Assembly: GCA_016938055.1 (NCBI GenBank)
Contig: JAFGVJ010000190.1
Location: 1 to 33,064 of the forward strand
Reading direction: 5' to 3'
Source of the DNA: Prolixibacteraceae bacterium
Lineage (GTDB): Bacteria; Bacteroidota; Bacteroidia; Bacteroidales; Prolixibacteraceae
Length of the DNA: 33,064 nucleotides
Under the pieces are notes generated by a model. The model ran no database searches. It had not been told where the DNA came from and saw only the letters and a program-made list of their open reading frames with translations. How positions within the stretch are numbered: the first letter of the stretch is position 1; each line of letters opens with the position of its first letter. The position numbers were made by a program, and so were the translations under genes. Below are positions 5,504-32,434 of this stretch, one piece after another.

Positions 5504-8500
5504 ATGAAAAAAGGATTGCTTTTATTACTGTTGATGGTACTGTGGGGGATCACATATGCCCAACAGTACACTGTAACCGGTAAGGTGACCGCTGCTGAAG
5601 ATGGCAGTACCCTGCCGGGTGTTAGCATTTCTGTAAAAGGAACCACCACAGGGACCATCACCGATATTGATGGAGATTATACCCTAAGGCTCAACAACGA
5701 CAATGCCACGCTGGTATTTGCTTTTGTTGGAATGCGGACACAGGAAATTCCCCTGAACGGTCAAAGTGTAATCAATGTAACACTTGAAACCGATGTATTG
5801 GGTGTCGACGAAGTAGTGGTTGTTGGTTATGGCGTAACCAAGAAAAGTTTGGTAACCGGTTCGATTGCCAAAATTGGTGCCGACGATATCATGCAAGCCC
5901 GTTCGACCCGTGTTGAAAGTGCCCTGCAGGGAAAAACTTCGGGGGTACTGATTCAGCAAAGCTCCGGAGCTCCGGGAGCCGAACAAAACATCATCATCCG
6001 CGGGGTGGGTTCTGACAACTCCGTCAGACCAATTTATGTGATCGACGGGATGCGTACCGATGGTATCGACTGGCTCGATCCGGAAGATATTGAGTCCATC
6101 GAAATTCTGAAAGATGCCGCTTCGGCCGCCATCTACGGAACAGAAGGTGGCAACGGTGTTGTACTGATCACTACCAAAATGGGAAAAGGTGGCAAAACCA
6201 ATGTTTCTTTCAGTTCATCCTATGGAGTGCAAAGTGTGATTCCCGGTTTCCGTGTGATGAACACTCCTGAATACCTCAAGTATTACCGCACGGCCTACCT
6301 GAACGATAACCCGAAGAAAACCATCGATGATGCCATGGCCATCTACCCCGATACTGACGTTGATACCGATTGGCTGGGTGAGATCTTTACCAGTGCACCT
6401 ACCCAAAAACACAAAGTCAGCATCGATGGTGGTGATGAAAAAGCGAAATATTATTTTTCGGTATCCTACACCAACCAGGATGGAATCATTGGTGGCGGCG
6501 ATAAAAGTAATTTTACCCGTTATGCGACCAAATTGAACCTCGACAGCAAGACAACCGACTGGCTTACCGTAGGAGCCCGTTTCTCCTACACCCACAGCCG
6601 TAAAAAAGGAATCAGGCAAAACGACGTGTTTGGATCAGTCACCAACAATGCCGTGGTCCTTGACCCCACCACACCAGTTTATTACAGCGATATCAGCGGA
6701 TATAGTGACCTTGACCGCGCTAACATGGAAGCTGCCTGGGGTGATAAATGGTACCTGAACCCTACCCTGAACGATGGCAACGGCTATTTCGGGATTTCAC
6801 AAAAAGTATTGAACGAAACTCAAAACCCTGTTCACCAGTTGTACAACGACAACGATCAGGATGTGATCAACAAAATATTGGGTGGTGCCTATGCCGAAAT
6901 TGATTTGTTCAAAGGGCTGAAATTCCGTTCAAATTTCGACATTGACCTCTCTCACCAATACAACCGTAACTGGAGTGGCCGTCAGTATACCAACAGCATG
7001 AATGCTCCGGGTGTACGCAGCAGTGCCACCCAACAAATCAACATGTACTTTACCTGGCAATGGGAAGGCTATTTTACTTACAACCGTCAGTTTGGCGATC
7101 ATACTGTTAGTGCAGTCGCCGGTACTTCGGCCAAGGAATACAGTCATGAATACCTGGGCGGACGTGGTGAAGACCTCGTGAAAGAATCGGCCAATTACGG
7201 CTGGATCGATTACGGCCTTTACATCGATACCCTGAACAACACCTCGTGGGGTGGTTTGGGCGGATGGGAACGCATGGCTTCCCAGTTTGGCCGGATCAGC
7301 TGGTCGTACCAGGACAAATACATGCTCACTTCCAACTTCCGTCGCGACGGAAACTCCAAATTTGGCCCCGCCAACAAATTCGGGATGTTCCCATCGGTTT
7401 CAGCCGGTTGGGTCATTTCAAGGGAAGACTTTTTTGATGTAGCTGCTATTAACTTCATGAAAGTTCGCTATAGCTGGGGTAAAAACGGGATTGCTACCAG
7501 TTTGGGCTGGGATTGGCGTTACCTGCCCACCAGCTCATCGGGTTCTTATTTCTACATTGATGGAAACGATCAGTTGTTGCCCATTGTAGAACCAACCCGT
7601 TTGGTGAACCCTGAATATCAGTGGGAAAAAACCAGCCAAAGCGACTTTGGTCTCGACATGGGTTTCTTCGAAAATAAATTGACCCTTGCAGCCGATTACT
7701 ACGTGAAAAAATCGTCCGACTTCCTGTTTGAAGGTTCAGTGCCTGCGCTGGCCGGAAACGACCCGCCAACCGTGAATGCCGGAACCATTGTGAACAAAGG
7801 GGTGGAAATGGAATTGGGTTTCCATGAAAGCATTGGCGATCTGAAGATTCATGTGAAACTCACTGCTTCGCATAACAAGAGTAAGGTTGACCAGATTACC
7901 GAAAGCATCAGTTACATTACCGGTGGTAACGTTGGTACCTTTGGCGATTCGAAGCGTTTTGAAGTGGGTTACGAGCCCTGGTATTTCTATGGATACAAAA
8001 CCGATGGTTTATTCACTTCGCAAGAGGAATTGGATGCCCACATCAACCAGAATGGCAAACCTATACAGTTGAATGCCAATATTGGAGATGTAAGGTACAT
8101 GGACATAGCCGGTGGTGGCGATAGCCTTGACCAGCCCGATGGCTTCATCACCGATCTCGACAAAACCTACCTGGGTTCTCCTTATCCCAAAATTATTGGT
8201 GGTTTAAGCATCTCCATGGAATACAAAGGTTTCGATTTCAACCTTTCTTCCTATGGACAATATGGCAATAAAACTTTACTGGCTGTTTCGGTCCGCAACG
8301 ACTTGTCGAACACCAACAAGCCTGATTTTTACATTAACAATGCATGGATTTCGGAAGAAGAAAATGGCGGCATGCCACGTCCTTCGGTCCGCGACCGCAA
8401 CCAGAATTTCTCACGGGTGAATGACTTCCTCTTACAGGATGGATCCTTCCTCCGGATCAGCAACGTTACGCTGGGTTATACCTTACCTAAAACAATAACT

Positions 8501-8695
8501 TCGAAGGTTGGCATCGGTGCAGTTCGCGTCTATGTCGCTGTAGATAACCTTTATACATTCACCAATTACAGTGGTATGGAACCCGAAATTGGTGGCGATT
8601 ACTGGGGTTACCGTGGTCAGCAGTGGGCTGGCATCGACCGTGCAGTTTATCCAAAACCACGTACGGTATTGGGTGGTATTAATGTTAACTTTTAA
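5504..8695 (+). CDS. SusC-like TonB-dependent outer-membrane transporter
   Basis: Signal peptide; N-terminal carboxypeptidase-like domain 'TVTGKVTAAEDGSTLPGVSISVKGTTTGTITDIDGDY'; plug 'VVVGYGVTKKSLVTGSIAKI', 'ILKDAASAAIYGTEGGNGVVLITTK'; C-terminal barrel ending '...RTVLGGINVNF'. Confidence 0.96.
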   Translation: MKKGLLLLLLMVLWGITYAQQYTVTGKVTAAEDGSTLPGVSISVKGTTTGTITDIDGDYTLRLNNDNATLVFAFVGMRTQEIPLNGQSVINVTLETDVLGVDEVVVVGYGVTKKSLVTGSIAKIGADDIMQARSTRVESALQGKTSGVLIQQSSGAPGAEQNIIIRGVGSDNSVRPIYVIDGMRTDGIDWLDPEDIESIEILKDAASAAIYGTEGGNGVVLITTKMGKGGKTNVSFSSSYGVQSVIPGFRVMNTPEYLKYYRTAYLNDNPKKTIDDAMAIYPDTDVDTDWLGEIFTSAPTQKHKVSIDGGDEKAKYYFSVSYTNQDGIIGGGDKSNFTRYATKLNLDSKTTDWLTVGARFSYTHSRKKGIRQNDVFGSVTNNAVVLDPTTPVYYSDISGYSDLDRANMEAAWGDKWYLNPTLNDGNGYFGISQKVLNETQNPVHQLYNDNDQDVINKILGGAYAEIDLFKGLKFRSNFDIDLSHQYNRNWSGRQYTNSMNAPGVRSSATQQINMYFTWQWEGYFTYNRQFGDHTVSAVAGTSAKEYSHEYLGGRGEDLVKESANYGWIDYGLYIDTLNNTSWGGLGGWERMASQFGRISWSYQDKYMLTSNFRRDGNSKFGPANKFGMFPSVSAGWVISREDFFDVAAINFMKVRYSWGKNGIATSLGWDWRYLPTSSSGSYFYIDGNDQLLPIVEPTRLVNPEYQWEKTSQSDFGLDMGFFENKLTLAADYYVKKSSDFLFEGSVPALAGNDPPTVNAGTIVNKGVEMELGFHESIGDLKIHVKLTASHNKSKVDQITESISYITGGNVGTFGDSKRFEVGYEPWYFYGYKTDGLFTSQEELDAHINQNGKPIQLNANIGDVRYMDIAGGGDSLDQPDGFITDLDKTYLGSPYPKIIGGLSISMEYKGFDFNLSSYGQYGNKTLLAVSVRNDLSNTNKPDFYINNAWISEEENGGMPRPSVRDRNQNFSRVNDFLLQDGSFLRISNVTLGYTLPKTITSKVGIGAVRVYVAVDNLYTFTNYSGMEPEIGGDYWGYRGQQWAGIDRAVYPKPRTVLGGINVNF

Positions 8696-8706
8696 TTTGA
8701 AGAAGA

Positions 8707-10251
8707 ATGAAAAAAATAATCTATCAGATCATCATCATCTTTACGCTGCTGACTGTTTCTATCAGCTGCGATAAAGACTGGCTGGAACTGGAATTGACCG
8801 GTGCTGTTCCTTTCTCCAGCGAATTGCTCGATACCGATGAGAAAGTGTTTGAAGTGCTATGTGGCGCTTACGATTTCTTGCAGGTGAAATATTATTCAGG
8901 CTGGAGTTCTTACTACATGCTGGCGAACCTTGCCAGTGACGATGGCGTTCCCGTGGGCGGAGGTTTTTCCGACCGTCCGGAATACTGGGACTTTTATCAG
9001 TACGAAGTGACTGCCGAGAACCCGGCCATTCTGCAATACTGGAGAAGGAATTATTATGGTATTTATCGTGCCAACATCGTTATCAACGAAATTGATTTGG
9101 AAACCAATGCTGTCAAACAATACAAGGCTGAAGCAAAGTTCCTGCGCGCATATTTCTATTTTGAACTGGTGAAAGCATTTGGCGATGTAGCCTTCTACAC
9201 TACCAACCTGGCTCCATCGGAATACAACATTTCCAATACCGAGAAATCGGTCATTTATGCTCAAATTGAACAAGACCTGTTGGATGCCATTGAAGTATTA
9301 CCAAACAAGTCGCAACAATCAAGGGCCGACATTACTCGTGCCAGCAAAGGAGCCGCTCAGGCACTGCTGGGAAAAGTTTACCTCTTCCAGGAAAAATTTG
9401 CCGAAGCAGCAACAGTTCTCGGAACGGTCATCACATCGGGCGAATATGCCCTGACTGCTGAATACGACAGCATCTTCATGAAAAGTGAAGAATTTGGGAT
9501 TGAATCGGTTTTCGAAATCCCTTACATGTCATACATCCATGGTGATTTCTGGGGCAATGGCCGCGAATCGGAAGGAAACATCGAAGTGCAATTGGCCGGT
9601 CCGCGCGAAACAGCCATTACCGGAATTTACAATGCTGGTTGGGGCTTCGACATGATCGATTCCAGTCTCATTGACCTTTTCGATGCCGAAGGCGATGCCG
9701 TTCGTAAATACGGTACCGGTTACGGACCTGAACTGTTCAAGGAAGTGTTGGTAGTTGCTCCTGCCGACGATGCGAATAACAACGGTTTCCCCGATGCCAA
9801 AGAGAAAGAAGGCTGGACCGGATGGTATCAGAAAAAACGGGCTCCGTACATTGGTTATAACGATCCCGGACAGTCCCCCATGGAAGCTACCTACGAAAAC
9901 AACGAACGCATGATCCGTTATGCCGATGTATTACTGATGTATGCCGAAGCATTGAATCGCAAGAGCCCTGCCGACGATGGCAAAGCCCTGGATGCAGTCA
10001 ACGAAGTGAGGGAACGTGCAAAATTACCTGCCTTGTCGGGCTTGTCGGGTGCTGCTTTACTTGAAAGGATCAAGAAAGAGCGCCGGATGGAATTCGGGAT
10101 GGAAGGTCATCGTTACTGGGACCTCGTTCGCTGGGGCGACGGACCAGCCGTTCTGGGCAGCCGTGGATTTACTGCTGGTGTTCACGAAGTATGGCCACTG
10201 CCTCAGGCCGAAGTTGGTAAAACTTCCCTGGTTCAAAATCCTGGTTATTAA
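8707..10251 (+). CDS. SusD/RagB family glycan-binding lipoprotein
   Basis: Lipobox 'TVSISC'; 'YRANIVINEID', 'AEAKFLRAYFYFELVKAFGDV', 'LLMYAEALNR', 'IKKERRMEFGMEGHRYWDLVRWG'. Adjacent to SusC. Confidence 0.96.
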   Translation: MKKIIYQIIIIFTLLTVSISCDKDWLELELTGAVPFSSELLDTDEKVFEVLCGAYDFLQVKYYSGWSSYYMLANLASDDGVPVGGGFSDRPEYWDFYQYEVTAENPAILQYWRRNYYGIYRANIVINEIDLETNAVKQYKAEAKFLRAYFYFELVKAFGDVAFYTTNLAPSEYNISNTEKSVIYAQIEQDLLDAIEVLPNKSQQSRADITRASKGAAQALLGKVYLFQEKFAEAATVLGTVITSGEYALTAEYDSIFMKSEEFGIESVFEIPYMSYIHGDFWGNGRESEGNIEVQLAGPRETAITGIYNAGWGFDMIDSSLIDLFDAEGDAVRKYGTGYGPELFKEVLVVAPADDANNNGFPDAKEKEGWTGWYQKKRAPYIGYNDPGQSPMEATYENNERMIRYADVLLMYAEALNRKSPADDGKALDAVNEVRERAKLPALSGLSGAALLERIKKERRMEFGMEGHRYWDLVRWGDGPAVLGSRGFTAGVHEVWPLPQAEVGKTSLVQNPGY

Positions 10252-10455: not shown

Positions 10456-12027
10456 ATGGAAGGTAAAAAAGGTTTTGTGGTAAAAGTATCGTTGATCGTG
10501 GCCCTGGGTGGATTCCTGATGGGTTTCGATGCTTCGGTGATTTCAGGAGTCATCAAATTTATTGAACCTGAGTTTAATCTGACAAAAATCCAGTTGGGCT
10601 GGGCAGTGAGCTGCTTGACCTTAACATCAACACTGGCCATGATGGTTGCAGGTCCCTTGAGCGACAAATTTGGTCGTAAATTGATCCTGAAATATGCAGC
10701 CATCTTGTACGCTATTTCAGCCATTCTTTCGGCCATTGCTCCCACCTTTGCCTTGTTGGTTGTAGCCCGCATGATTGGCGGTCTGGGCGTTGGTGCTTCA
10801 CTGATTATTGCTCCCATGTACATTGCTGAAATATCACCGGCAAAAATCAGGGGGCGTATGGTTTCTTTCAACCAGCTGAACATTGTTTTAGGGATTTCGG
10901 TGGCCTTTTTTACCAACTACCTGATTTTGCAACTTGCTCAGGGTGGAAGCACATTTGCCGCCTCGCTGGGAATTGATCAATATGCCTGGCGTTGGATGTT
11001 GGGGCTGGAAACATTGCCGGCAATTCTGTACTTCATTTTCCTGTTCTTTGTTCCTCCAAGTCCACGTTGGCTGGCCATGAACGGTCACGATGAACAAGCC
11101 TTAAAAATATTGACCCAGGCCAGTGGCTCGCAAAATGCCCATGAGGTACTCGAAGCCATTAAAACCAACCTGGCAGCGAATGTTGACAAAGCGAAAGCCC
11201 GTTTGTCCGACCTTTTTAAACCCGCCCTTAAGCTGGTGTTGCTCATAGGGGTGGTCATTGCCATATTGCAACAGATTACCGGGATTAACGCGGTTTTCTT
11301 TTATGCACCCATGATTTTTGAACAAACCGGGATTGGGGTTGACGCTTCTTTTTCGCAAGCCATTTTGGTAGGCTTAACCAACTTGGTTTTTACCATTTTG
11401 GCCATGTGGCTCATCGATAAGTTGGGCCGAAAATTTTTGTTGGTAGTTGGCTTCTCCGGAATCCTGATTTCCATGTCGATCCTGGCCTACTCTTTTGCAT
11501 CAGCAACTTATACCCTCAGCAATGAAGCCATTGCGAATCTCATGCAAACACTTCCTTCAGTGGACTGGAGCTCGTTGCAGAACATCACTTTTAACAGCGA
11601 CATCGCCATTAAAGAAGCTCTCCATAGCCTGATGGGGTCAGAACAGGCCAAAACTCATGCTGCCGACATTGTCAGTCAGTCCATCCACATCAACTCATGG
11701 CTGGTGCTGATTGGGATCATTGGCTTTGTTGCTTCGTTTGCCATTTCGGTAGGCCCTGTAATGTGGGTGTTGTTTTCCGAATTGTTTCCCAATACCATAC
11801 GCGGAATTGCCATTTCGTTCATCGGCTTTATCAATTCAGCCGTCAGCTTTTCGGTACAACTGGTATTCCCATGGGAACTCGAAAATTTGGGGAATGCAGG
11901 AACCTTCCTCATTTATGGCATTTTTGGCCTGTTGGGACTCGTTTTTGTGTTGGTATTCCTCCCCGAAACAAAGGGGAAGTCGCTCGAAGAGTTGGAAACC
12001 ATTTTAGTGAAATCTGATAAAAAATAA
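10456..12027 (+). CDS. MFS sugar porter family transporter (ATG 10456 preferred to the TTG at 10432)
   Basis: 'GGFLMGFDASVISG', 'GPLSDKFGRK', 'PSPRWLAMNG', 'QQITGINAVFFYAPMIFEQTG', 'FSELFPNTIRG', 'LPETKGKSLEELE'; about 12 TM segments. Confidence 0.93.
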   Translation: MEGKKGFVVKVSLIVALGGFLMGFDASVISGVIKFIEPEFNLTKIQLGWAVSCLTLTSTLAMMVAGPLSDKFGRKLILKYAAILYAISAILSAIAPTFALLVVARMIGGLGVGASLIIAPMYIAEISPAKIRGRMVSFNQLNIVLGISVAFFTNYLILQLAQGGSTFAASLGIDQYAWRWMLGLETLPAILYFIFLFFVPPSPRWLAMNGHDEQALKILTQASGSQNAHEVLEAIKTNLAANVDKAKARLSDLFKPALKLVLLIGVVIAILQQITGINAVFFYAPMIFEQTGIGVDASFSQAILVGLTNLVFTILAMWLIDKLGRKFLLVVGFSGILISMSILAYSFASATYTLSNEAIANLMQTLPSVDWSSLQNITFNSDIAIKEALHSLMGSEQAKTHAADIVSQSIHINSWLVLIGIIGFVASFAISVGPVMWVLFSELFPNTIRGIAISFIGFINSAVSFSVQLVFPWELENLGNAGTFLIYGIFGLLGLVFVLVFLPETKGKSLEELETILVKSDKK

Positions 12028-12031
12028 ACAA

Positions 12032-13333
12032 ATGAGAACCTTATATTTTCCGCTTATCATGGTCGTGCTTTTTGCGTCATGTCAATCGAAAAAACCAAAA
12101 ACGGCCGAAGAAGCCGGCCCTAAAAAGGTAGAAGTCATCAATACCGATGGTCAATACCGCTTGCACGTCGATGGCAAAGAATTTTACATCCATGGTGCAG
12201 GCTGTGAATTTGGCGATATAGCCTCCCTGGCAAAACATGGTGCAAACTCCTTCCGTACCTGGCGTACCGATAACGGCAAAAATACCGGGAAAGAAATCCT
12301 TGACCAGGCTTATGAAAACGGGCTGATGGTAATGATGGGCCTCGACATTCAGCGCGAACGTCATGGCTTCGACTACAACAATCCCGAAGATGTTCAGAAA
12401 CAATTGGAATACGTAAAGGGTGAGGTGATGAAATACAAGGACCACCCTGCCTTGCTGGCCTGGGGGATTGGCAACGAACTGAACCTGCGTGCTTCCAACA
12501 TGAAAGTGTGGGATGCCGTGATCGACATAGCAAAGATGATTCACGAGATAGACCCGAACCACCCGGCAACCACCATGCTGGCCGGTATTGGCAAACGTGA
12601 GGTCGATTATTTTGCCGAAAACTGCAGGGATCTCGACTTTATTTGCGTACAAATGTATGCCGACATCGAAAACCTGCAAACCCGATTAGCCGATGCTGGA
12701 TACAACGGACCCTATATCGTCACCGAATGGGGAGCAACCGGACACTGGGAAGTACCGCCAACTGAATGGGGAGCGCCTGTGGAACAAACCAGCCAGGAAA
12801 AACAAAATGCCTTTTTGCACCGCTACGAAGTGGCCATCAAAGCCGATGAAAAGCGCTGCATGGGATCCTATGCTTTCCTCTGGGGACAGAAACAGGAACG
12901 TACCCCTACCTGGTACGGCATGATCCTTGAAAATGGCCACACCACCGAAACCGTCGATGCCATGTACAAGATATGGAACGGCAAATGGCCCGAAAACCGT
13001 TGCCCAACCCTGGACTCATTGCGTATCAATGGCCTTAAAATTTACGACAACGTTACTGTGAAACCTGGCGAAACCTTTACTGCTTTTGCCGCAGCACGCG
13101 ATTACGAGGGCGAAGCGCTGACCTATCGTTGGGAGATTATGCACGAAAGCACCGATTTGGGTGATGGTGGCGACTTTGAATCCCGTCCCGAAACTTTGCT
13201 GAACGAAATGGGCGAAGCTGAAATGATCATTACTGCACCAGCCAATGGTGGAGCCTACCGCCTTTTCGTTTATGTAAACGACGGTCACGAACATTCAGCT
13301 ACTGCTAATTTTCCATTTCTGGTAAAAAATTAA
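12032..13333 (+). CDS. TIM-barrel glycoside hydrolase lipoprotein with C-terminal Ig-like domain (GH158-like endo-beta-1,3-glucanase candidate)
   Basis: Lipobox 'VLFASC'; TIM-barrel GH motifs 'HGANSFRTWRTDNG', 'LLAWGIGNEL' (E149), 'GPYIVTEWGATG' (E232); C-terminal Ig-like 'ARDYEGEALTYRWEIMHES'. GH158 assignment is a recollection. Confidence 0.7.
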   Translation: MRTLYFPLIMVVLFASCQSKKPKTAEEAGPKKVEVINTDGQYRLHVDGKEFYIHGAGCEFGDIASLAKHGANSFRTWRTDNGKNTGKEILDQAYENGLMVMMGLDIQRERHGFDYNNPEDVQKQLEYVKGEVMKYKDHPALLAWGIGNELNLRASNMKVWDAVIDIAKMIHEIDPNHPATTMLAGIGKREVDYFAENCRDLDFICVQMYADIENLQTRLADAGYNGPYIVTEWGATGHWEVPPTEWGAPVEQTSQEKQNAFLHRYEVAIKADEKRCMGSYAFLWGQKQERTPTWYGMILENGHTTETVDAMYKIWNGKWPENRCPTLDSLRINGLKIYDNVTVKPGETFTAFAAARDYEGEALTYRWEIMHESTDLGDGGDFESRPETLLNEMGEAEMIITAPANGGAYRLFVYVNDGHEHSATANFPFLVKN

Positions 13334-13337
13334 ACTC

Positions 13338-14240
13338 ATGCCCGTATACCTGAAGAATACTCACCTTAATGTGGTCATTGGCTGCCCGATGGAATGGTAT
13401 CGTGGCTCGCGGTTCGATCATTCGGGGAATATTCTTCAGGTAACGTTAAACGGGAAACATACCTTTTGCACCTCCGAAAAGCCCGAGCTATCACCTTATT
13501 ACGGATTTGGCTTGTTGAATGAGTTCGACATTGACCAGCCACAAGCTTACCACGAAACACCAGCCGGGAAGTATTTTGCAAAATTAGGTGTCGGTCAATT
13601 GCTGAAAGAGGATGATGGTCCCTACAATTTTTTTAACAACTACGAGATGCTTCCCCGGCAATTTTTCATCCAACAGCAGGATGAAAACAGTTTGATCTTT
13701 CAGTCGGAGCATGAACATTCTGACACAGAAATAACTGATTATCAGAAAAAATTATCCATCAACCAAAATCACTTGCTGATTGAATACCGTTTGGAAAACA
13801 AAGGCTCATCGGTATTGAAAACGAGCGAATATGCTCACAATTTTATTGCCGTCGACAACAGCCATGTTAATGGCAACTATTTGTTAGAATTCAACTTTGA
13901 ACTGAAACCGGATCAATTTGAAGCCAATCACAACATTGACACGCTCCTGAATTTCAATGGCCATCAACTAACCTGGACAAAATCCCCCGATAAGGATTTT
14001 TTTATTCGTCGCCTGAATGGGAGCCTTGCAAAAGGTCAATGGTGGAAGCTCACCAACCTGGCCGAAGGTGCCGGGCTGAAAGAAGAAGTCAGTTTCGAGG
14101 CAGGCCTTGTTAACCTGTGGGGGACCCGGCATGTTTTGAGTCCCGAACTTTTTAATGAGCTAAGCATAGAACCCGGCCAGGCGGTAACATGGTGGAGAAA
14201 ATATACTTTTTTTGATGAAGCACACATTGCTGGTGCTTGA
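13338..14240 (+). CDS. Aldose-1-epimerase/galactose mutarotase-like fold protein, no signal peptide
   Basis: 'GCPMEWYRGSRFDHSGNILQVTLNGKHTFC', 'GLLNEFDIDQP', 'LLIEYRLENKGSSVLKTSEYAHNFIAVDN' resemble mutarotase-like beta-sandwich proteins. Confidence 0.65.
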   Translation: MPVYLKNTHLNVVIGCPMEWYRGSRFDHSGNILQVTLNGKHTFCTSEKPELSPYYGFGLLNEFDIDQPQAYHETPAGKYFAKLGVGQLLKEDDGPYNFFNNYEMLPRQFFIQQQDENSLIFQSEHEHSDTEITDYQKKLSINQNHLLIEYRLENKGSSVLKTSEYAHNFIAVDNSHVNGNYLLEFNFELKPDQFEANHNIDTLLNFNGHQLTWTKSPDKDFFIRRLNGSLAKGQWWKLTNLAEGAGLKEEVSFEAGLVNLWGTRHVLSPELFNELSIEPGQAVTWWRKYTFFDEAHIAGA

Positions 14241-14253
14241 AAAATGATAAAGA

Positions 14254-17200
14254 ATGAAGAAGGAAATTCACATTGGAAATACACGGATACTTCAAAGTGA
14301 TAAACCGGTTCAGGGAAAATGGATCGATCGGGAAGGTGAGGCTTTTTATGTCATTAGCCATTTCGATGAAATGCCTCCTTTCTTCCTGTCCATTGTGAGT
14401 CATTCCGACCACTGGATGTATTTGTCTAGCAACGGAAGTCTTACCGCGGGCCGTACCAATCCTGAACTTGCGCTTTTCCCCTATTACACCGATGACAAAA
14501 TACACGATTACGCCGGAGTCACCGGTAGTAAAACTATCATCATGGTTACCATCAACGGGAAAACCAGTTTGTGGGAACCGTTCTCAAACCGTTACAAAGG
14601 GATCTACCAAACCCTGAAGCGGATATACAAAAATGGTACTGGAAACAAAATCATTTTTGAAGAAGTCAATTTCGATTTACAATTGACCTTCAGTTATAGT
14701 TGGATGAACAGCGAAAGGTTCGGGTGGGTCAGGAAAAGCTCCCTTTCCAATCAAAACCACAATGCTGTTGAAATAAACATTGTCGATGGAATTCAAAATA
14801 TTTTACCTTATGGCATTAATCGAACTATGCAAGGTATGCTTAGTACTTTGGTTGATGCATACAAGAAAACAGAACGAATTGGAAATTTAGCCATTTATCG
14901 CCTTAGTTCCATACCTGTTGACCGTGCTGAACCCAGTGAGGCATTAAAAGCCAATACCGTTTGGAGTGTTGGTCTCGAAAACACAACACTTTTATTAAGC
15001 AACAAGCAGCTCGATGGTTTTTGCAGCGGTGTTGAGGTGGAAAACGAAATGGAAAACCTTGGAACCAAGGGTGCCTATCTCATCAATTCTACCTTTAAAC
15101 TCGAAGCCAACGTTGTTAAAACCTGGTACCTCGTAGCCGAAGTCAACCAGGATAGTGCTCAAATAAAGGCTACACTGCATTTTATGAAGCAGCACAACTG
15201 CTCAGCAAAGCTGGAGGAGGATATTGAGGACGGAACCCAGAAACTGATTGGCATAGTGGCCAAAGCCGATGGCTTGCAACTGACTGCCGATACACTCAAT
15301 ACAAAACGCCACTTTGCCAACATCTTGTTCAATAGCATGCGGGGCGGGGTACCGCTCAACGATTACCTGGTGCAAACCAATGATTTTATTCGGCACATCG
15401 GGCAGTTCAATAAATCAATTTACGCGCAAAATGAAGCGTGGCTCAATAGTCTCGAAAAAGAAATACCCTATTATAAACTGATTGATCGGCTTAATCAGCA
15501 AGGCAAACCCGATTTGATTAGATTGGGACTAGAATATTTGCCGCTCATGTTTAGCCGCCGCCATGGAGACCCCAGCCGCCCATGGAATTTGTTCAACATT
15601 CAGTTGAAGAACAGCGATGGCTCACCTTCGTTAAACTACCAGGGCAACTGGCGCGATATTTTTCAGAACTGGGAAGCTTTGGCCATCTCGTACCCCGGGT
15701 TTTTACCGGGTATGATTGCAAAATTCCTGAATGCCTCTACCATTGACGGGTACAACGCTTACAAAATTACCCGAGATGGCATCGAGTGGGAAGTACTCGA
15801 CCCCGATGATCCCTGGTCGAACATTGGTTACTGGGGCGATCACCAGATTATTTACCTGGAAAAACTCCTCGAATGGTCGGAGAAATTTTTCCCCGGACAG
15901 TTGGTGAAATGGTTCAAGCAAAAACTGTTTGCATATGCCAACGTACCCTACCAACACAAACCCTATCAGCAATTACTGAAAAACCCCTACGATTCAATTT
16001 CTTTCAACGAGGCCAAACACCTGCGCTGCCTTCAACTCGAGAAAGAACTGGGAGCCGACGGTAAACTGATTCAAACAGCGAAGGGAACGCTTCAGGTAAA
16101 CCTGGCTGAAAAGCTCCTGGTTCCTTTGCTCTCGAAACTAAGCAATTTTGTCCCTGGTGCAGGAATCTGGATGAACACCCAGCGCCCGGAGTGGAACGAT
16201 GCCAACAATGCCCTGGTTGGGATTGGCGCATCAATGGTCACCCTTTATTACCTGCGCCGTTACGTTTCCTTCCTCGAAAAACTGTTGGGGGATACCGATT
16301 TCAATGAAGTTGAAATCAGCACCGAAGTACTGGAACTCTTCAACAACATCAACAGGGCCCTCATGGATAACCAGTCTGCCCTGCATGCAGCATTATCCGA
16401 CGAAACACGCAAAACAATCATGGATGGCCTGGGAGAAGCCGGTAGCCAATTCAGGGCAAAAGTTTATGCCGGACTGCAAGAAACCACTGGCATTCTTGAG
16501 CTGCCAACACTATCAGGTTTTCTGAAAACAGTCAAGCAATACATCCATCATTCCATAGAGCACAACCGTCGTTCCGATGGCTTGTACCATGCCTATAATC
16601 TCTTGCTGATCAAACCCGATAAAGTTGGGGTGCGTCACTTAACCGAAATGCTCGAAGGACAAGTGGCCCTTTTAAGTTCCGGTACCCTAAGCCCGTCGGA
16701 AGCACTGGAGTTATTGAACAATTTGCGAAACAGCCAATTGTACCGACCCGATCAGCGTTCGTACACACTTTATCCCAACAAGCAATTACCCTCGTTGCTG
16801 CAAATCAATAACCTTACCGCCGAAGAGGTGAATGTTTCGGCCTTGTTAAAACACTTGTTGGAAAGTGGGAATACCGATATCGTCAAACAGGATCTGGAAG
16901 GGGTTTTCCATTTCAACGGAAAATTCAACAATAGCAAAACATTGGCTGACCAGCTCAATCAGTTGAAAGTTGAAATGCCCGATCTTGAAAATGAAAAAAA
17001 ATACCTACTCGATTTGTACGAAAAATTGTTCGATCACCAATCATTCACGGGTCGATCGGGTACTTTTTATAAATACGAAGGGCTGGGCTGTATTTATTGG
17101 CACATGGTTTCCAAGTTGTTGCTGGCAGTGAGCGAAAACATACAACATGCAATCAGCACCAAAACTGGGGAACATGTTATTGCCCAACTCCGGAAGCATT

Positions 17201-17685
17201 ACAACGAAATACGTGAAGGCATTGGCAGCCATAAATCACCGGCCGAGTACGGTGCTTTCCCTTCCGATCCTTATTCGCATACACCATCAATGATGGGCGT
17301 TCAACAGCCCGGTATGACCGGACAAGTGAAGGAAGACATTCTCACACGGTGGTTCGAATTGGGTGTAGAAGTGAAAGGCGGCAGCGTCCATTTTCATCCC
17401 GAGATGATCGATCCTTCAGAATTCAACCTTCAGCTTCATGCTGAAAATCAATCATTCTTTGAGCGTCACTTCAAAATTACTTTACCAGCAAAGCACACCT
17501 TTGCGGCATTTTCATTTTGCCACATCCCGGTGCTGTATCTGAAAGGCCATCAGAACGAAGTACTACTTCAGCTAAAAGGCGATAAGACCTTTAAAAACAG
17601 TGGTCATGAAGTGGGTAAGGAATGGTCGGCAGCCATCTTTTCCCGAAGCGATGAGGTGCAGCAAATCACTGTTCACTTTGAATAA
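14254..17685 (+). CDS. Large (1143 aa) cytoplasmic GH94-superfamily-like protein; candidate beta-1,3-glucan/oligoglucan phosphorylase (GH94/GH149/GH161-like)
   Basis: No signal peptide; N-terminal 'DHWMYLSSNGSLTAGRTNPELALFPYYTDDKIHD'; central 'GYWGDHQIIYLEKLLEWSEKFFP' and 'GIWMNTQRPEWNDANNALVG' (WND motif like the GH94 catalytic Asp region; D649). Cassette context. Confidence 0.6.
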   Translation: MKKEIHIGNTRILQSDKPVQGKWIDREGEAFYVISHFDEMPPFFLSIVSHSDHWMYLSSNGSLTAGRTNPELALFPYYTDDKIHDYAGVTGSKTIIMVTINGKTSLWEPFSNRYKGIYQTLKRIYKNGTGNKIIFEEVNFDLQLTFSYSWMNSERFGWVRKSSLSNQNHNAVEINIVDGIQNILPYGINRTMQGMLSTLVDAYKKTERIGNLAIYRLSSIPVDRAEPSEALKANTVWSVGLENTTLLLSNKQLDGFCSGVEVENEMENLGTKGAYLINSTFKLEANVVKTWYLVAEVNQDSAQIKATLHFMKQHNCSAKLEEDIEDGTQKLIGIVAKADGLQLTADTLNTKRHFANILFNSMRGGVPLNDYLVQTNDFIRHIGQFNKSIYAQNEAWLNSLEKEIPYYKLIDRLNQQGKPDLIRLGLEYLPLMFSRRHGDPSRPWNLFNIQLKNSDGSPSLNYQGNWRDIFQNWEALAISYPGFLPGMIAKFLNASTIDGYNAYKITRDGIEWEVLDPDDPWSNIGYWGDHQIIYLEKLLEWSEKFFPGQLVKWFKQKLFAYANVPYQHKPYQQLLKNPYDSISFNEAKHLRCLQLEKELGADGKLIQTAKGTLQVNLAEKLLVPLLSKLSNFVPGAGIWMNTQRPEWNDANNALVGIGASMVTLYYLRRYVSFLEKLLGDTDFNEVEISTEVLELFNNINRALMDNQSALHAALSDETRKTIMDGLGEAGSQFRAKVYAGLQETTGILELPTLSGFLKTVKQYIHHSIEHNRRSDGLYHAYNLLLIKPDKVGVRHLTEMLEGQVALLSSGTLSPSEALELLNNLRNSQLYRPDQRSYTLYPNKQLPSLLQINNLTAEEVNVSALLKHLLESGNTDIVKQDLEGVFHFNGKFNNSKTLADQLNQLKVEMPDLENEKKYLLDLYEKLFDHQSFTGRSGTFYKYEGLGCIYWHMVSKLLLAVSENIQHAISTKTGEHVIAQLRKHYNEIREGIGSHKSPAEYGAFPSDPYSHTPSMMGVQQPGMTGQVKEDILTRWFELGVEVKGGSVHFHPEMIDPSEFNLQLHAENQSFFERHFKITLPAKHTFAAFSFCHIPVLYLKGHQNEVLLQLKGDKTFKNSGHEVGKEWSAAIFSRSDEVQQITVHFE

Positions 17686-17713: not shown

Positions 17714-19960
17714 ATGAAACTGACAATCCAATTAAGCCTGATTTTTTTTCTTTTGATGCTGGTCAACGCTTGTGTACAGCAAGAGGAAAAAGATCCCGTT
17801 GAACAGCAAGTAAGTAGTTTGCTGGCGCAAATGACCCTCGATGAAAAACTGGGGCAGATGATGCAGGTCAATTATTACGGGAAACCCGAAGACTGGAATG
17901 AACAGCTTAAGAACGGGCAGATTGGTTCTTTCCTGAACCTTTCGGGCGTGATAGATGCCAACGAAGTACAACGCATAGCGATGGAGGAGAGCCGCTTGGG
18001 CATTCCCTTGCTCATTGGTCGTGATGTGATTCATGGTTTTAAAACCATCTTCCCGATTCCCTTAGGAATGGCTTCCAGCTGGAGTACCGAAATGGCCGAG
18101 GGTGCCATGGAAATTGCTGCCAAAGAAGCCAAGGCAGCCGGAATCAACTGGACCTTTGCACCCATGATCGACGTTACCTGGGATCCGCGCTGGGGACGGG
18201 TTGCTGAAACCTGCGGTGAAGATCCATACCTGACCTCCCAATTGGGTGTTGCCATGATCAGGGGTTATCAGGGTAACAATCCTTCCGATTCGTTACGCAT
18301 TGCCGCTTGTGCCAAGCATTACGTGGGTTACGGGATGAGTGAAGCCGGCCGCGATTACAATACCACCTACATCCCTGAAGCCTTGTTGCGCAATGTGCAC
18401 CTGCGCCCATTCAAAGCTGCCGCCGATGCCGGATGTTTAACCTTTATGTCGGCCTTTAACGATTTGAATGGTGTGCCAACATCCGGGAACTACTTTACCC
18501 TGAAAACCATCTTACGCGATGAGTGGAAATACGATGGGATGGTGGTGAGTGACTGGGCATCCATCCAGCAACAGGTGGTTCACGGGTACTGCGAAACCGA
18601 CAAAGATGCCGCTGAAAAATCTGTTTTAGCTACCGTTGACATGGAAATGGCCAGCAGGTGTTACGATCACCTCAAACAGCTGATCGAAGAAGGAAAAATT
18701 ACCGAGGAACTGATCAACGAAAGGGTGGCCAACATTCTTCGGATCAAGTTCAAAATGGGTTTGTTTGAAAACCCTTATGTTGATGAAACACTGGCCGAAA
18801 GGGTAACGCTTACTGACGAAAACCTCGATTATGCCCGAAAAGTTGCCCGAAACAGCATGGTACTGCTGAAAAATGAAGCACAAACCCTTCCTTTGAAAAA
18901 AACCCAAAAAGTAGCGCTCATTGGTCCCATGACCAACGCCCCGCACGATCAGATGGGAACCTGGGTTTTCGATGGCGATGAGAAAAATTCAATCACGCCG
19001 CTGACCGCTTTTCAGGAAGTGTTGGGCAGTAACTTAAACTATGCCCTTGGCCTGGAATACAGCCGTGATAAAAGCCGTGCCGGTTTCACGCAGGCCCTGG
19101 CAGCTGCCCGTAAATCCGACGTAGTGGTTTACCTGGTGGGTGAAGAAGCAGGGCTTTCGGGCGAAGCCAACAGCCGCGGAATCATCGACCTCCCGGGCCT
19201 TCAGTCTGAGCTTTTAAGCGAACTTTCCAAAACAGGCAAGCCCATCGTTCTGGTGGTATTGGCTGGCCGCCCCTTGGGGATTGGTGCCGAAATTGACCTG
19301 AGCGATGCCGTTTTGTATGCATGGCATCCGGGAACCATGGCCGGGCCTGCTTTAACCGACCTTATTTTTGGCGATTACTCACCATCGGCCAAACTCCCGA
19401 TAACCATGGTGAAAGGTGCAGGACAAATTCCGTTCTACTACTACCGGAAGAATACTGGGAAACCAACCGATCCTGAACGAATGACCTATATCGATGACAT
19501 TCCGCGTAACTCCAAACAATTGTCGCTGGGATTTACCTCTCTGCACATCGACTATGGCGTTACACCGCTTTATCCCTTTGGCTATGGCTTAAGCTATACC
19601 ACTTTTGATTACAGCGAAGTTTCCTTATCTTCATCAGAGTTAATGATGAAGGGTGATTTGACAGCTTCGTGCACCATCACCAATATCGGTAGTGTGGCAG
19701 CCGAAGAAATTGTGCAATTGTACGTACGCGATTTGGTGGGTAGCCTTACCCGCCCCATCAAAGAATTGAAAGGCTTCACACGAATTGCATTGCAGCCCGG
19801 TGAATCAAAAGAAGTTACCTTTACCATTCAACCATCCGACCTGGAGTTTCACAATGGTGAAGCCTACGTGATTGAACCCGGAAAATTCAGACTATGGATA
19901 GCCAAAGATTCCGAATCGGGCATAGCAAGCGAGTTTACGCTGCTTAATGAACAGAAATAA
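17714..19960 (+). CDS. GH3 beta-glucosidase lipoprotein (BglX-like)
   Basis: Real start likely ATG 17714 (MKLTIQLSLIFFLLMLVNAC lipobox), not 17600. GH3 motifs 'LLIGRDVIHGFKTIFPIPL', 'KHYVGYG', 'YDGMVVSDWASIQQ', 'LYPFGYGLSYTTFDYS', fibronectin III-like C-terminus. Confidence 0.95.
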   Translation: MKLTIQLSLIFFLLMLVNACVQQEEKDPVEQQVSSLLAQMTLDEKLGQMMQVNYYGKPEDWNEQLKNGQIGSFLNLSGVIDANEVQRIAMEESRLGIPLLIGRDVIHGFKTIFPIPLGMASSWSTEMAEGAMEIAAKEAKAAGINWTFAPMIDVTWDPRWGRVAETCGEDPYLTSQLGVAMIRGYQGNNPSDSLRIAACAKHYVGYGMSEAGRDYNTTYIPEALLRNVHLRPFKAAADAGCLTFMSAFNDLNGVPTSGNYFTLKTILRDEWKYDGMVVSDWASIQQQVVHGYCETDKDAAEKSVLATVDMEMASRCYDHLKQLIEEGKITEELINERVANILRIKFKMGLFENPYVDETLAERVTLTDENLDYARKVARNSMVLLKNEAQTLPLKKTQKVALIGPMTNAPHDQMGTWVFDGDEKNSITPLTAFQEVLGSNLNYALGLEYSRDKSRAGFTQALAAARKSDVVVYLVGEEAGLSGEANSRGIIDLPGLQSELLSELSKTGKPIVLVVLAGRPLGIGAEIDLSDAVLYAWHPGTMAGPALTDLIFGDYSPSAKLPITMVKGAGQIPFYYYRKNTGKPTDPERMTYIDDIPRNSKQLSLGFTSLHIDYGVTPLYPFGYGLSYTTFDYSEVSLSSSELMMKGDLTASCTITNIGSVAAEEIVQLYVRDLVGSLTRPIKELKGFTRIALQPGESKEVTFTIQPSDLEFHNGEAYVIEPGKFRLWIAKDSESGIASEFTLLNEQK

Positions 19961-20038: not shown

Positions 20039-20842
20039 ATGATGAAAAATTACCTGATGATTTTGCTGATTGCATTCACCGCAGTGGCGTGCAACAAAGT
20101 GAAAGAACCTGCTTATGAGCTGGTTTGGAGCGATGAGTTCGACTACCAGGGTTTACCCGACAGCTCCCGCTGGAGTTACGATACCATTGGCAATGCCTGG
20201 GGTTGGGGAAATCATGAATTGCAATACTACACGGCCAACAGGATTGAAAATGCCGAAGTTTCGGATGGTACCCTGAAGATTCGTGCCCTGGAAGAGCCCT
20301 GGAACGATTTCAACTACACTTCGGCCCGCATCATCACCAAAGAAAAGGGCGACTGGCTGTATGGCCGGTTTGAAGTTCGGGCAAAACTACCTGATGGACG
20401 CGGTTTGTGGCCGGCTATCTGGATGCTCTCCACCGACTGGGAATATGGCGGATGGCCCCGCAGCGGCGAAATCGACATCATGGAAAACGTGGGCTACGAT
20501 CCCGATACCATTGTGGCTTCGGTGCATACCGGCAGTTATTATCATTCCATCGGTACCCAGCGGAACAATAAAATTTCGATCCCCGATAACCGTGAGCAAT
20601 TTCATGTGTATGCCATTGAATGGGACTCGGTTTCGGTCACCGCTTTTGTGGATGAAACGGCCTACTTCACTTTTGAAAAGGAATCGGACGATCCCAACGT
20701 GTGGCCTTTTAACAAGCGTTTCCATTTACTGCTGAATGTTGCCGTGGGTGGCGACTGGGGCGGAATTCACGGCATTGCCGATGGAATTTTTCCGGCCATC
20801 ATGGAAATCGATTATGTAAGAGTGTATCAAAAAACAAAATAA
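20039..20842 (+). CDS. GH16 endo-beta-glucanase (laminarinase-like) lipoprotein
   Basis: Lipobox 'FTAVAC'; catalytic motif 'GEIDIMENVG'; 'LVWSDEFDYQGLPDSSRWSYD', 'GRGLWPAIWML', 'RFHLLLNVAVGGDWGG'. Confidence 0.95.
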   Translation: MMKNYLMILLIAFTAVACNKVKEPAYELVWSDEFDYQGLPDSSRWSYDTIGNAWGWGNHELQYYTANRIENAEVSDGTLKIRALEEPWNDFNYTSARIITKEKGDWLYGRFEVRAKLPDGRGLWPAIWMLSTDWEYGGWPRSGEIDIMENVGYDPDTIVASVHTGSYYHSIGTQRNNKISIPDNREQFHVYAIEWDSVSVTAFVDETAYFTFEKESDDPNVWPFNKRFHLLLNVAVGGDWGGIHGIADGIFPAIMEIDYVRVYQKTK

Positions 20843-22596
20843 TGATCAGAATAAGCACCACTGTCATATTGATATTTTTTCTTTTTAACGCCTATTCACA
20901 AACAACAAGCTGTGACGATCCGGTTTGGACCGATGAATTTGATTATACCGGGGCTCCAGCTTCCGATAAATGGGGTTTCGATACCGGTGGAGGTGGTTGG
21001 GGAAATCAGGAACTTCAGACCTACACCAGCAAACGGGACAATTCCTGGGTCGCCGACGGAAAGCTCTTTATCAAAGCAATTAAAAGCAATAACGAATGGA
21101 CCTCGGCCCGACTGGTCACCAAAAACAAAGGCGACTGGCGTTATGGCAAAATTGAAGTTCGGGCAAAAATTCCTTCGGGAACAGGTGTTTGGCCGGCTAT
21201 CTGGATGCTTCCTACCGACAATGCCTATGGCTCGTGGCCCAAAAGCGGTGAGATTGATATCATGGAACATGTTGGTTATGAACCCAACCGGATTTATGGT
21301 ACCGTTCATACCGATGCCTACAACCATCGCCTGGGAACTCAAAAAGGGAGTAATACCATGCTGCCTACTGCTTATACCGAGTTCCATGATTATGCGGTGG
21401 AATGGGATGAAGAAAAAATTGTGGTGATGATTGACAATCAACCTTTTTTCACCTTCAAAAACGAATACAAAACCAGTAAAGAGTGGCCCTTCGACAAACG
21501 TTTTCACCTGGTTCTGAACATTGCCATTGGCGGAAGCTGGGGAGGCGCCAAAGGCATTGATCCCAATCTGGAGGAAGCCATCATGGAGATTGAACATGTG
21601 AGGATCTACAAAGCCAAGCCAATACCGGTCATTAAAGGAAGCGGAATGATTGTTCCCGGACAGGAAGTGAACTATTCAGTGAATAAGTATGATGGCTATC
21701 AATATGGGTGGAAGGTCCCCGGGGACGCTGTCATAGTCAACGGACAGGGTACCGAAACACTCACTGTACAATGGGGGGAAACTGAAGGGGCAGTAGCGCT
21801 TGAATTGATCGATGAGTGCGATACCATTGCTGCTGAACCGCTCAACATCCATTTTTTTACCGCTGAAGGAAGCTTTGAAATCATCAATACTGAATCAGAT
21901 TCTGTTCTGTGGAAAGTGGACAGCACCCTCAACAATACCGTTTCGATTCAAAGTGAGGAGCCCAACGATGTGAGGGTTAATTTTGACATTAGCTCTCCCA
22001 TCAAAAATCCGGGAATTTCCTATCACTTCGACACTCCGCATGATTTCAGTGAGGTGAATGAGATGGTGTTCTATCTAAAAGCGGAAGAAGGTCAAGCCCC
22101 TTCCAACATCCGAATTGACTTAATGGATGTGAATGGTGAGATTGATAAAAACAATCCCTTTAGAATTGATCAGATTGATCCAGGCAGTCACTATGTAAAA
22201 TATACCAATGCTTTTTATACTGGTGATGCTGCATCATTCAACATTCAAAAAGTAAAAAGTATTCGTATTTACTTCAATTACGGATCGAGCGGGAAAAAGG
22301 GCACAGGCTATTTTGTTTTCAGCCCCATAGAAATGAGAACGGAAAGAACTTCGGCTCCGTTGATCAACAAACAAGAATTTGAATGCTGGCCGAATCCAGC
22401 AACTGATTTTTTGATGCTGGACCAAGCATACGATGCTGTCAAAATTTATAACCTTCAGGGAGCCATCGTTCGTGTTGTTCCCGAGCATGAACTTGGTTCT
22501 GCTGTGCTCCAAATTCAGCACCTGCCCACGGGCTCTTATCTTTTGCAAGCCCTAAAAGGCGGGAATACCTTTCATGCAAAGTTCAGTAAAAAGTAA
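20842..22596 (+). CDS. GH16 endo-beta-glucanase with PKD-like region, uncharacterised beta-sandwich-like module and T9SS C-terminal sorting domain
   Basis: 'GEIDIMEHVG' catalytic motif; PKD-like 'GYQYGWKVPGDAVIVNGQGTETLTVQWG'; C-terminus 'FECWPNPATDFLMLDQAYDAVKIYNLQGAIVRVV...GSYLLQALKGG'. Confidence 0.92.
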   Translation: MIRISTTVILIFFLFNAYSQTTSCDDPVWTDEFDYTGAPASDKWGFDTGGGGWGNQELQTYTSKRDNSWVADGKLFIKAIKSNNEWTSARLVTKNKGDWRYGKIEVRAKIPSGTGVWPAIWMLPTDNAYGSWPKSGEIDIMEHVGYEPNRIYGTVHTDAYNHRLGTQKGSNTMLPTAYTEFHDYAVEWDEEKIVVMIDNQPFFTFKNEYKTSKEWPFDKRFHLVLNIAIGGSWGGAKGIDPNLEEAIMEIEHVRIYKAKPIPVIKGSGMIVPGQEVNYSVNKYDGYQYGWKVPGDAVIVNGQGTETLTVQWGETEGAVALELIDECDTIAAEPLNIHFFTAEGSFEIINTESDSVLWKVDSTLNNTVSIQSEEPNDVRVNFDISSPIKNPGISYHFDTPHDFSEVNEMVFYLKAEEGQAPSNIRIDLMDVNGEIDKNNPFRIDQIDPGSHYVKYTNAFYTGDAASFNIQKVKSIRIYFNYGSSGKKGTGYFVFSPIEMRTERTSAPLINKQEFECWPNPATDFLMLDQAYDAVKIYNLQGAIVRVVPEHELGSAVLQIQHLPTGSYLLQALKGGNTFHAKFSKK

Positions 22597-22597
22597 T

Positions 22598-24364
22598 ATG
22601 CATCATGCTATGGAAAAAAGAACCTATCTACTGCTTTCTCTTTTGATTTTCATATTTTATTCGGGCCTTGCACAAAACGGGTTTCTAAAAGCCGAGGCCA
22701 CAAAAATTGTGGATGCCAAAGGAAACGAAGTACTGCTCCGTGGCATGGGCCTTGGTGGCTGGATGTTGCAGGAAGGCTACATGCTGGAAACATCGCGCTT
22801 TGCCGGTCCGCAGCACCAAATCAAAAATACCATCGAAAAAACCGTTGGGACCGTTGCCATGAATGCTTTTTACGAAGCCTGGCTGGCCAACTACTGCACC
22901 AAACAAGATGTGGATTCCATGGCCGCCTGGGGCTTCAATTCCATTCGGCTGCCCATGCACTACAACCTGTTTACCCTTCCCATTGAAGTCGAACCGGTAG
23001 CAGGAGAAGATACCTGGCTTCAGAAAGGTTTTGTCATGGTCGATTCCCTGCTCGATTGGTGCGAAGTCAACCGTATGTACCTGATCCTCGATTTACATGC
23101 CGCACCCGGTGGCCAGGGCAAAGATGCCAACATTTCGGATTACGATCCGGAAAAACCCTCCTTATGGGAAAGTGCCGAAAACCAGCGAAAAACAATCGCG
23201 CTTTGGAAAAAGCTGGCCGAACGTTACCGCGATGAACCCTGGATGGGCGCTTATGACATCCTGAACGAACCCAACTGGGATTTCGACAATGCCGGTAACA
23301 AAAATGGTTGTAACTGCGAAAAAAATGAACTGCTCTGGCGTTTTTATACCGAAGCCATCAAAGCCATCCGCGAAGTGGACCAGAACCACATTGTGATCAT
23401 TGAAGGCAACTGCTGGGGGAACAATTACAAAAACATGCCCCACCCGAAAACTTTCGACAATAACCTGGTGATGAGCTTCCACAAATACTGGAACTATAAC
23501 AGGCTGGAAGAAATTCAATACATCCTCGATTACCGTGAACAATTCAAGGTGCCTGTATGGCTGGGCGAATCGGGCGAGAACTCCAATACCTGGTTTACCA
23601 ACGCCATTGCCCTGCTCGAAGCCCATCAGATTGGCTGGGCCTGGTGGCCTTACAAGAAAATCAACTCGGTCACAGGAACCGTCACCATTCCCAAGACTGA
23701 TGGATACCAGAATCTGCTCGATTACTGGAACGGAAACGGGCAACAGCCCACAAAGGAACAAGCCACCAACTGGCTGATGGAACAAGCCGAAATGATGAAG
23801 CTGAACAACTGCATGATCCGTTACGATGTAATTGATGCCATGTTTCGTCAGGCACAGGGCGATCAATCGGCCAAACCATTTAAGCACCACAGCATTCCCG
23901 GAACCATTGAGGCAGTCGATTACGATTTTGGTGCCAACGGAATAGCCTATTTCGATACCGATACGGCCAACTACCGTACCTCCACCAATAAAAGTACCGG
24001 CTGGAACAATGGTCGCAACTATCGCAACGATGGAGTAGATATTTCAAGAAGTACTTTAGATCAAAGCTTCTACGTAGGCTGGACCGAAGCAGGTGAATGG
24101 CTGCAATACACCACCACCGTTCCTGAAGATGCCGGGTACAGGGTCACCATTACTTACGCTGCAGTTGAAAAGCAGGGGAAAGTCAAGCTCCAGATAGCTG
24201 GAACCGACGGATACGAACTTATACTTCCTTCAACCGGAGGCGATCTGGAGTGGAAGAACATTAGCATCGACCATGTGGTTATGCCGAAAGGCACTCAACC
24301 CTTGAGATTAATGGTGCTTGAAGGTGGGTTCAACCTGAAATCCATTCATTTCGATCAACTTTAA
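22598..24364 (+). CDS. GH5-family (cellulase-like) secreted hydrolase with C-terminal CBM6 module
   Basis: Signal peptide '..LLLSLLIFIFYSGLAQ'; 'YDILNEPNWDF' and 'VWLGESGENSNTW'; CBM6-like 'YRNDGVDISRS...YVGWTEAGEWLQYTTTVPEDAGYRVTITYAA'. Start 22598 or 22610. Confidence 0.88.
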   Translation: MHHAMEKRTYLLLSLLIFIFYSGLAQNGFLKAEATKIVDAKGNEVLLRGMGLGGWMLQEGYMLETSRFAGPQHQIKNTIEKTVGTVAMNAFYEAWLANYCTKQDVDSMAAWGFNSIRLPMHYNLFTLPIEVEPVAGEDTWLQKGFVMVDSLLDWCEVNRMYLILDLHAAPGGQGKDANISDYDPEKPSLWESAENQRKTIALWKKLAERYRDEPWMGAYDILNEPNWDFDNAGNKNGCNCEKNELLWRFYTEAIKAIREVDQNHIVIIEGNCWGNNYKNMPHPKTFDNNLVMSFHKYWNYNRLEEIQYILDYREQFKVPVWLGESGENSNTWFTNAIALLEAHQIGWAWWPYKKINSVTGTVTIPKTDGYQNLLDYWNGNGQQPTKEQATNWLMEQAEMMKLNNCMIRYDVIDAMFRQAQGDQSAKPFKHHSIPGTIEAVDYDFGANGIAYFDTDTANYRTSTNKSTGWNNGRNYRNDGVDISRSTLDQSFYVGWTEAGEWLQYTTTVPEDAGYRVTITYAAVEKQGKVKLQIAGTDGYELILPSTGGDLEWKNISIDHVVMPKGTQPLRLMVLEGGFNLKSIHFDQL

Positions 24365-24405
24365 TTTTTCTTAACCTTGTCCTCAACCTTAATACTACCA
24401 GTCTA

Positions 24406-29030: not shown

Positions 29031-29174
29031 AAGATTGGATTTTGCGACAGGAAATTTAGCATGAATAGGTTTAGTACACAAACCAATCAATACATCAAAA
29101 CTTTCAGCGAACTGCTCACGATTACATCTTTCGTTGTTAAAAATTGAATTAACCTGGTTTTAACACTGTGTTGC

Positions 29175-31890: not shown

Positions 31891-32103
31891 GTGGAAACTT
31901 CAGAAATAATAAAAGAAATAGAAAAACTGCCAGTTTCTAAACGTTTTTTAATTATTGAGAGAACCATCCAGTCAATTAAAAGAAACGAAGAAATAACAAA
32001 GATGGAAACTGCTGCGAGTGCCCTATTGACCGATTACGAGTCTGATTATGAATTGACTTCATTTACCGGCATTGATTTGGATGAGTTTTATGAGGCAAAA
32101 TGA
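31891..32103 (+). CDS. Putative antitoxin (70 aa, GTG start)
   Basis: Small acidic ORF immediately upstream of and overlapping a MazF/PemK-like ORF by 14 bp. Confidence 0.65.
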   Translation: METSEIIKEIEKLPVSKRFLIIERTIQSIKRNEEITKMETAASALLTDYESDYELTSFTGIDLDEFYEAK

Positions 32104-32434
32104 AATTTGGCTAATTAATCTGGATCCAACAATTGGTTCAGAAATTAGAAAGATAAGACCAGCAGTCATCGTCAGTGATGATGCTTTAGGAAAACTACCT
32201 TTAAAAATTATTGTACCAATAACAGATTGGAAAGATCATTATCAGTTAGCTCCCTGGATGATAAAGCTTAATCCTGATACATTGAATTTATTGGAAAAAG
32301 TTTCTTGTGCAGATTGCTTTCAAGTTCGATCTGTTTCTCAGATTCGTTTTATTAGAAAGATTGGCGTGCTTGATGATCATTCTAAGGAAGAAGTCCGATT
32401 AGGCCTTTCCAAAGTATTATCATTAAATTTTTAA
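32090..32434 (+). CDS. MazF/PemK-like toxin
   Basis: 'RQNEIWLINLDPTIGSEIRKIRPAVIVSDDALGKLPLKIIVPITDW' and 'QVRSVSQIRFIRKIGVL' match the PemK/MazF pattern; ATG 32090 gives a canonical N-terminus. Confidence 0.85.
   Translation: MRQNEIWLINLDPTIGSEIRKIRPAVIVSDDALGKLPLKIIVPITDWKDHYQLAPWMIKLNPDTLNLLEKVSCADCFQVRSVSQIRFIRKIGVLDDHSKEEVRLGLSKVLSLNF

Follow-up and report, generated by a model that had tools for sequence, protein, structure and literature searches.

The window (the whole stretch of DNA analysed, 33,064 nucleotides) carries a PUL whose gene content fits beta-1,3-glucan use, with the following genes lying around and including that of the protein studied here, P0001:

2216-5146, + strand: Reg_prop/Y_Y_Y sensor protein, probable locus regulator
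5504-10251, + strand: SusC and SusD outer-membrane glycan uptake pair (TIGR04056, 844 bits; SusD_RagB)
10456-12027, + strand: MFS sugar porter, probable inner-membrane importer (Sugar_tr, E 7e-106; TIGR00879 over cut-off)
12032-13333, + strand: GH158-like endo-beta-1,3-glucanase with a lipoprotein signal, N-terminus MRTLYFPLIMVVLFASC (PDB 9oro, GH158, E 3.9e-90)
13338-14240, + strand: P0002, 300 residues, aldose 1-epimerase/galactose mutarotase fold, without signal peptide (AF2, Foldseek)
14254-17685, + strand: P0001, GH149 beta-1,3-glucan phosphorylase, 1143 residues (NF058639; PDB 6hq6; fold TM to 6hq8)
17714-19960, + strand: GH3 beta-glucosidase, probable lipoprotein (NF011678 BglX, 674 against 666 bits)
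20039-22596, + strand: two GH16 genes of laminarinase type, the second with a T9SS sorting tail
22574-27162, + strand: two GH5 genes with CBM6/CBM35, the second with a T9SS tail
27261-29090, - strand: GH128-type (Glyco_hydro_cc) protein with CBM6, PKD and a T9SS tail

The start of the GH3 gene was set at the ATG that opens MKLTIQLSL, because beginning at the listed GTG (17600) would make it overlap the GH149 gene. A preliminary description of this DNA placed P0001 between the MFS and GH3 genes; GH3 does lie directly downstream, however the MFS gene is separated from P0001 by the GH158 lipoprotein and mutarotase-like genes. The setting resembles published Bacteroidetes GH149 loci (PMC5827456) and agrees with the laminarin PULs of Formosa (PMC6246565). 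Of 90 rows that matched GH149, many with short flanks and a few being partial genes or one record twice, 48 have a homologue of the window's GH16 nearby, 19 one of its GH158, 18 one of its MFS and 18 one of its GH3. A PemK/MazF-like toxin gene lies at 32072-32434 (+ strand). No RNA features were found within the window, promoter-like sites are fewer than in shuffled sequences, and the 24 terminator-like sites (shuffle mean 15.5) fall mostly inside genes.

The reading frame of P0001 is open from its ATG to the stop, confirming the 1143-residue protein described earlier, with stops all along the matching frame of the reverse complement. The N-terminus, MKKEIHIGNTRILQ, carries no signal peptide, with a Kyte-Doolittle maximum of 1.09 (11-residue windows, first 60 residues) compared with 2.63 for the neighbouring GH158 lipoprotein, in line with the leaderless protein proposed from the outset. 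Given the missing signal peptide and the MFS gene in the locus, P0001 is most likely cytoplasmic and would act on imported oligosaccharides. The segment PEWNDANNALVG occupies residues 645-656, with WND at 647-649, so both the motif and the numbering of D649 had been given correctly. The region of ~490 residues remarked upon after this motif is likewise real (494 residues downstream of D649), however its length is not unusual, since this is the standard GH149 layout (6HQ6), and it had looked odd because the yardstick was the GH94 cellobiose phosphorylases of ~800 residues.

P0001 scores 1569.8 bits against the NCBIfam GH149 equivalog NF058639 (cut-off 1150), with an end-to-end alignment of residues 16-1142 on profile positions 2-1133 of 1134; this score, together with hundreds of relatives in public genomes, places the match far beyond chance. 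The best sequence match among solved structures is Pro_7066 (PDB 6hq6/6hq8), spanning residues 9-1140 at 1155 bits, with ~48% identity over the full length when identities are counted in the alignment. As the GH149 equivalog is passed, the new family or uncharacterised relative offered as an option in the preliminary description was rejected. No match to Pfam, PF17167 included, was obtained at E 0.001, which is no sign of novelty because Pfam has no model fitting P0001. In a tree of 88 rows, drawn from GH149 relatives alone, P0001 is nested among GH149 proteins, its sister (support 98) being a Prolixibacteraceae protein, L002, whose 58% identity is also the highest among the full-length relatives compared.

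Fold comparison bears on the same assignment. The AlphaFold (AF2) model of P0001, built from 25 aligned GH149 proteins (pLDDT 83.6), superposes on 6hq8/6hq6 with a TM of 0.92 at 47% identity (1149 columns, 6hq8). It shows the GH149 architecture of a beta-sandwich at the N-terminus, a helical linker, an (alpha/alpha)6 domain carrying two inserts, and a jelly roll at the C-terminus. As in Pro_7066, WND is followed by the second insert, the remainder of the (alpha/alpha)6 domain and then the jelly roll. The GH94-like fold on which the preliminary description depended is thus borne out, in its GH149 form. A GH161 beta-1,3-glucan phosphorylase, requiring chains of at least three sugars, belongs to the same clan, and the GH161 structures 9h8v and 9qqk do give weak matches to P0001 (61 and 60 bits), however these are in pieces only, whereas the GH149 match covers the full length with roughly twenty-fold more bits, and the model fits GH161 9gy9 with a TM of only 0.66 at 16% identity; this assignment is extremely improbable. 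An equally remote prospect is a GH94 enzyme, be it a cellobiose, laminaribiose or cellodextrin phosphorylase, which would have the WND motif and overall fold in common with P0001, yet there is neither a PF17167 match nor any match to classical GH94 PDB sequences in the search of solved structures, and the TM to the GH94 laminaribiose phosphorylase 6ggy is 0.56. Furthermore, the genome has its own GH94 genes elsewhere, with a PF17167 search returning two only, L094 (contig C194) and L095 (contig C376). The nearest solved structure to L095 is the chitobiose phosphorylase 8bou. Membership of either GH161 or GH94 was rejected on family scores and fold, and, of the three families named at the outset, GH149 is the one that the scores favour.

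The residues named for the Pro_7066 active site, R470, D471, W651, N652, D653, E951 and H959 (PMC6771811; published numbering equals the chain index with a constant offset of 19), correspond to R467, D468, W647, N648, D649, E942 and H950 of P0001, all seven being invariant in 25 GH149 proteins. These, and the counterpart of a Pro_7066 surface site, map to the window as follows, with positions taken from the alignment and active-site roles from PMC6771811:

15652-15657, + strand: R467-D468, RD motif, sugar-1-phosphate recognition (R470-D471 in Pro_7066)
16192-16200, + strand: W647-N648-D649, with D649 the catalytic Asp (D653 in Pro_7066)
17077-17079, + strand: E942 (Pro_7066 E951, which contacts bicine mimicking the donor sugar)
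17101-17103, + strand: H950, predicted phosphate-recognition His (Pro_7066 H959)
17194-17208, + strand: K981-N984-E985, at the Pro_7066 surface oligosaccharide site (E990, Y993, E994)

The model loops around the active site are of low confidence (437-446, 519-525, 650-655 and 933-945), and the predicted placement of D649 in the active site comes from alignment with the crystal structure, one such loop adjoining it. That P0001 is a catalytically inactive homologue has no positive evidence in its favour and is scarcely credible, with every named active-site residue kept, the frame open and the locus position conserved in a congener.

P0001 differs from other GH149 members in minor ways. Two of the three surface-site residues are replaced and the last Glu alone is kept, so a trait that marks a subgroup around Pro_7066 and does not define the family is missing here. 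No other of the 25 GH149 proteins compared has so divergent a jelly roll (residues 1041-1143, positions 17374-17682), its mean identity being 23% against 34% among the others. This C-terminal domain has diverged far faster than the remainder of P0001. Five near-invariant GH149 positions are altered, and no known catalytic residue is among them. Such changes could point to a GH149 enzyme of shifted specificity, acting for example on mixed or branched beta-glucan oligosaccharides, with K981/N984 in place of E990/Y993, the divergent jelly roll, and a locus holding GH158 and two GH5 genes, in which the GH158, MFS and GH16 neighbours are common to the sister locus, all being compatible with this. 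However, the donor-site residues are invariant, the five altered positions spare the known catalytic residues, and the surface motif, which binds laminarihexaose in Pro_7066, is reported to be less conserved in bacterial GH149 enzymes of lower identity to Pro_7066, with published members beyond the Pro_7066 group lacking it as well (PMC6771811), making shifted specificity unlikely.

The protein encoded directly upstream, P0002, gives no convincing match to Pfam, NCBIfam or PDB sequences, and its AF2 model (pLDDT 82.6) finds mutarotases as best Foldseek matches (E 2.7e-12, TM ~0.6). In a congener (L090) and a Lentisphaerae MAG (L005), a relative of P0002 again immediately precedes GH149. Elsewhere such proteins are rare: counting the window's own genome, 5 of 295 Bacteroidia-class genomes have one. 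A Prolixibacteraceae sub-branch of GH149 with altered chain-length or branch preference, and with a cytoplasmic mutarotase-like partner handling the anomer of the leftover glucose or oligosaccharide, is conceivable, though somewhat more doubtful still than shifted specificity by itself.

P0001 is thus almost certainly an ordinary GH149 beta-1,3-glucan phosphorylase (clan GH-Q), a prediction drawn from sequence and model, with a probable cytoplasmic location and imported beta-1,3-glucan chains as its expected substrate. This agrees with the activity on imported oligosaccharides put forward in the preliminary description, for which support now comes from fold and active site as well as from the family model and a solved relative aligned over its full length. 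Assays have shown Pro_7066 and EgP1 to be beta-1,3-glucan phosphorylases, and GH149 enzymes convert beta-1,3-gluco-oligosaccharides of at least two sugars to alpha-Glc-1-P by phosphorolysis (PMC5827456, PMC6484121); the linkage and chain-length preference of P0001 are presumed to be alike. In the proposed order of events, the secreted GH16, GH5, GH128 and GH158 enzymes would cleave beta-1,3-glucan outside the cell, SusCD would take the oligosaccharides up through the outer membrane, and they, or their trimmed products, would cross the inner membrane as the putative cargo of the MFS porter. The cytoplasmic GH149 enzyme would then remove one glucose per round from the non-reducing end, with D649 acting as general acid and inorganic phosphate attacking, so that alpha-glucose 1-phosphate is released and the chain shortens until glucose is left. 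Phosphorolysis in this manner would save one ATP per sugar released.

Alpha-phosphoglucomutase (PF02878) was not found in the window's own genome (G000, 80.7% complete) and is present in seven of seven congeners; this was not taken as a biological oddity, an assembly gap being the most likely cause. Likewise, an apparent second GH149 copy in the congener G005 was discounted, as its two matches cover profile positions 2-540 and 539-1132 and most likely come from a single gene split between contig ends. Some GH149 genes (L014, L003, L078, L010) lie in contigs that carry the labels Brockarchaeota, Actinomycetota and Acidobacteria; either horizontal transfer or misbinning of MAG contigs may explain this.

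P0001 is a rather diverged addition to the characterised GH149 family that raises no new mechanistic question. It supports the presence of a complete pathway for beta-1,3-glucan in this uncultured genome, and offers another candidate biocatalyst for the synthesis of beta-1,3-gluco-oligosaccharides. Of the known systems, Pro_7066 shares its domains, among them the lengthy region beyond WND (~500 residues beyond D653, and 494 beyond D649 in P0001), its active-site residues and its fold (TM 0.92), with the replaced laminarihexaose-site residues and strongly diverged jelly roll setting P0001 apart. The locus of the sister protein (L002, Prolixibacteraceae MAG Tobar14m-G4, same record as L087) is similar beyond the 58% identical GH149, with MFS, GH158, GH16 and GH5 genes at 67-75% identity to those of the window, however its GH3 gene lies upstream of GH149 and the flank compared showed no mutarotase-like gene. 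GH161 (9GY9, 9QQK; PapP) has the clan, fold, WND-type catalytic site and probable reaction in common with P0001, but at 16% identity and a TM of 0.66, with no full-length sequence match. More distant again in fold, the GH94 laminaribiose phosphorylase PsLBP (6GGY, 6GH3) is shorter than P0001, with 11-12% identity and a TM of 0.56, yet retains the same donor site and overall domain order.
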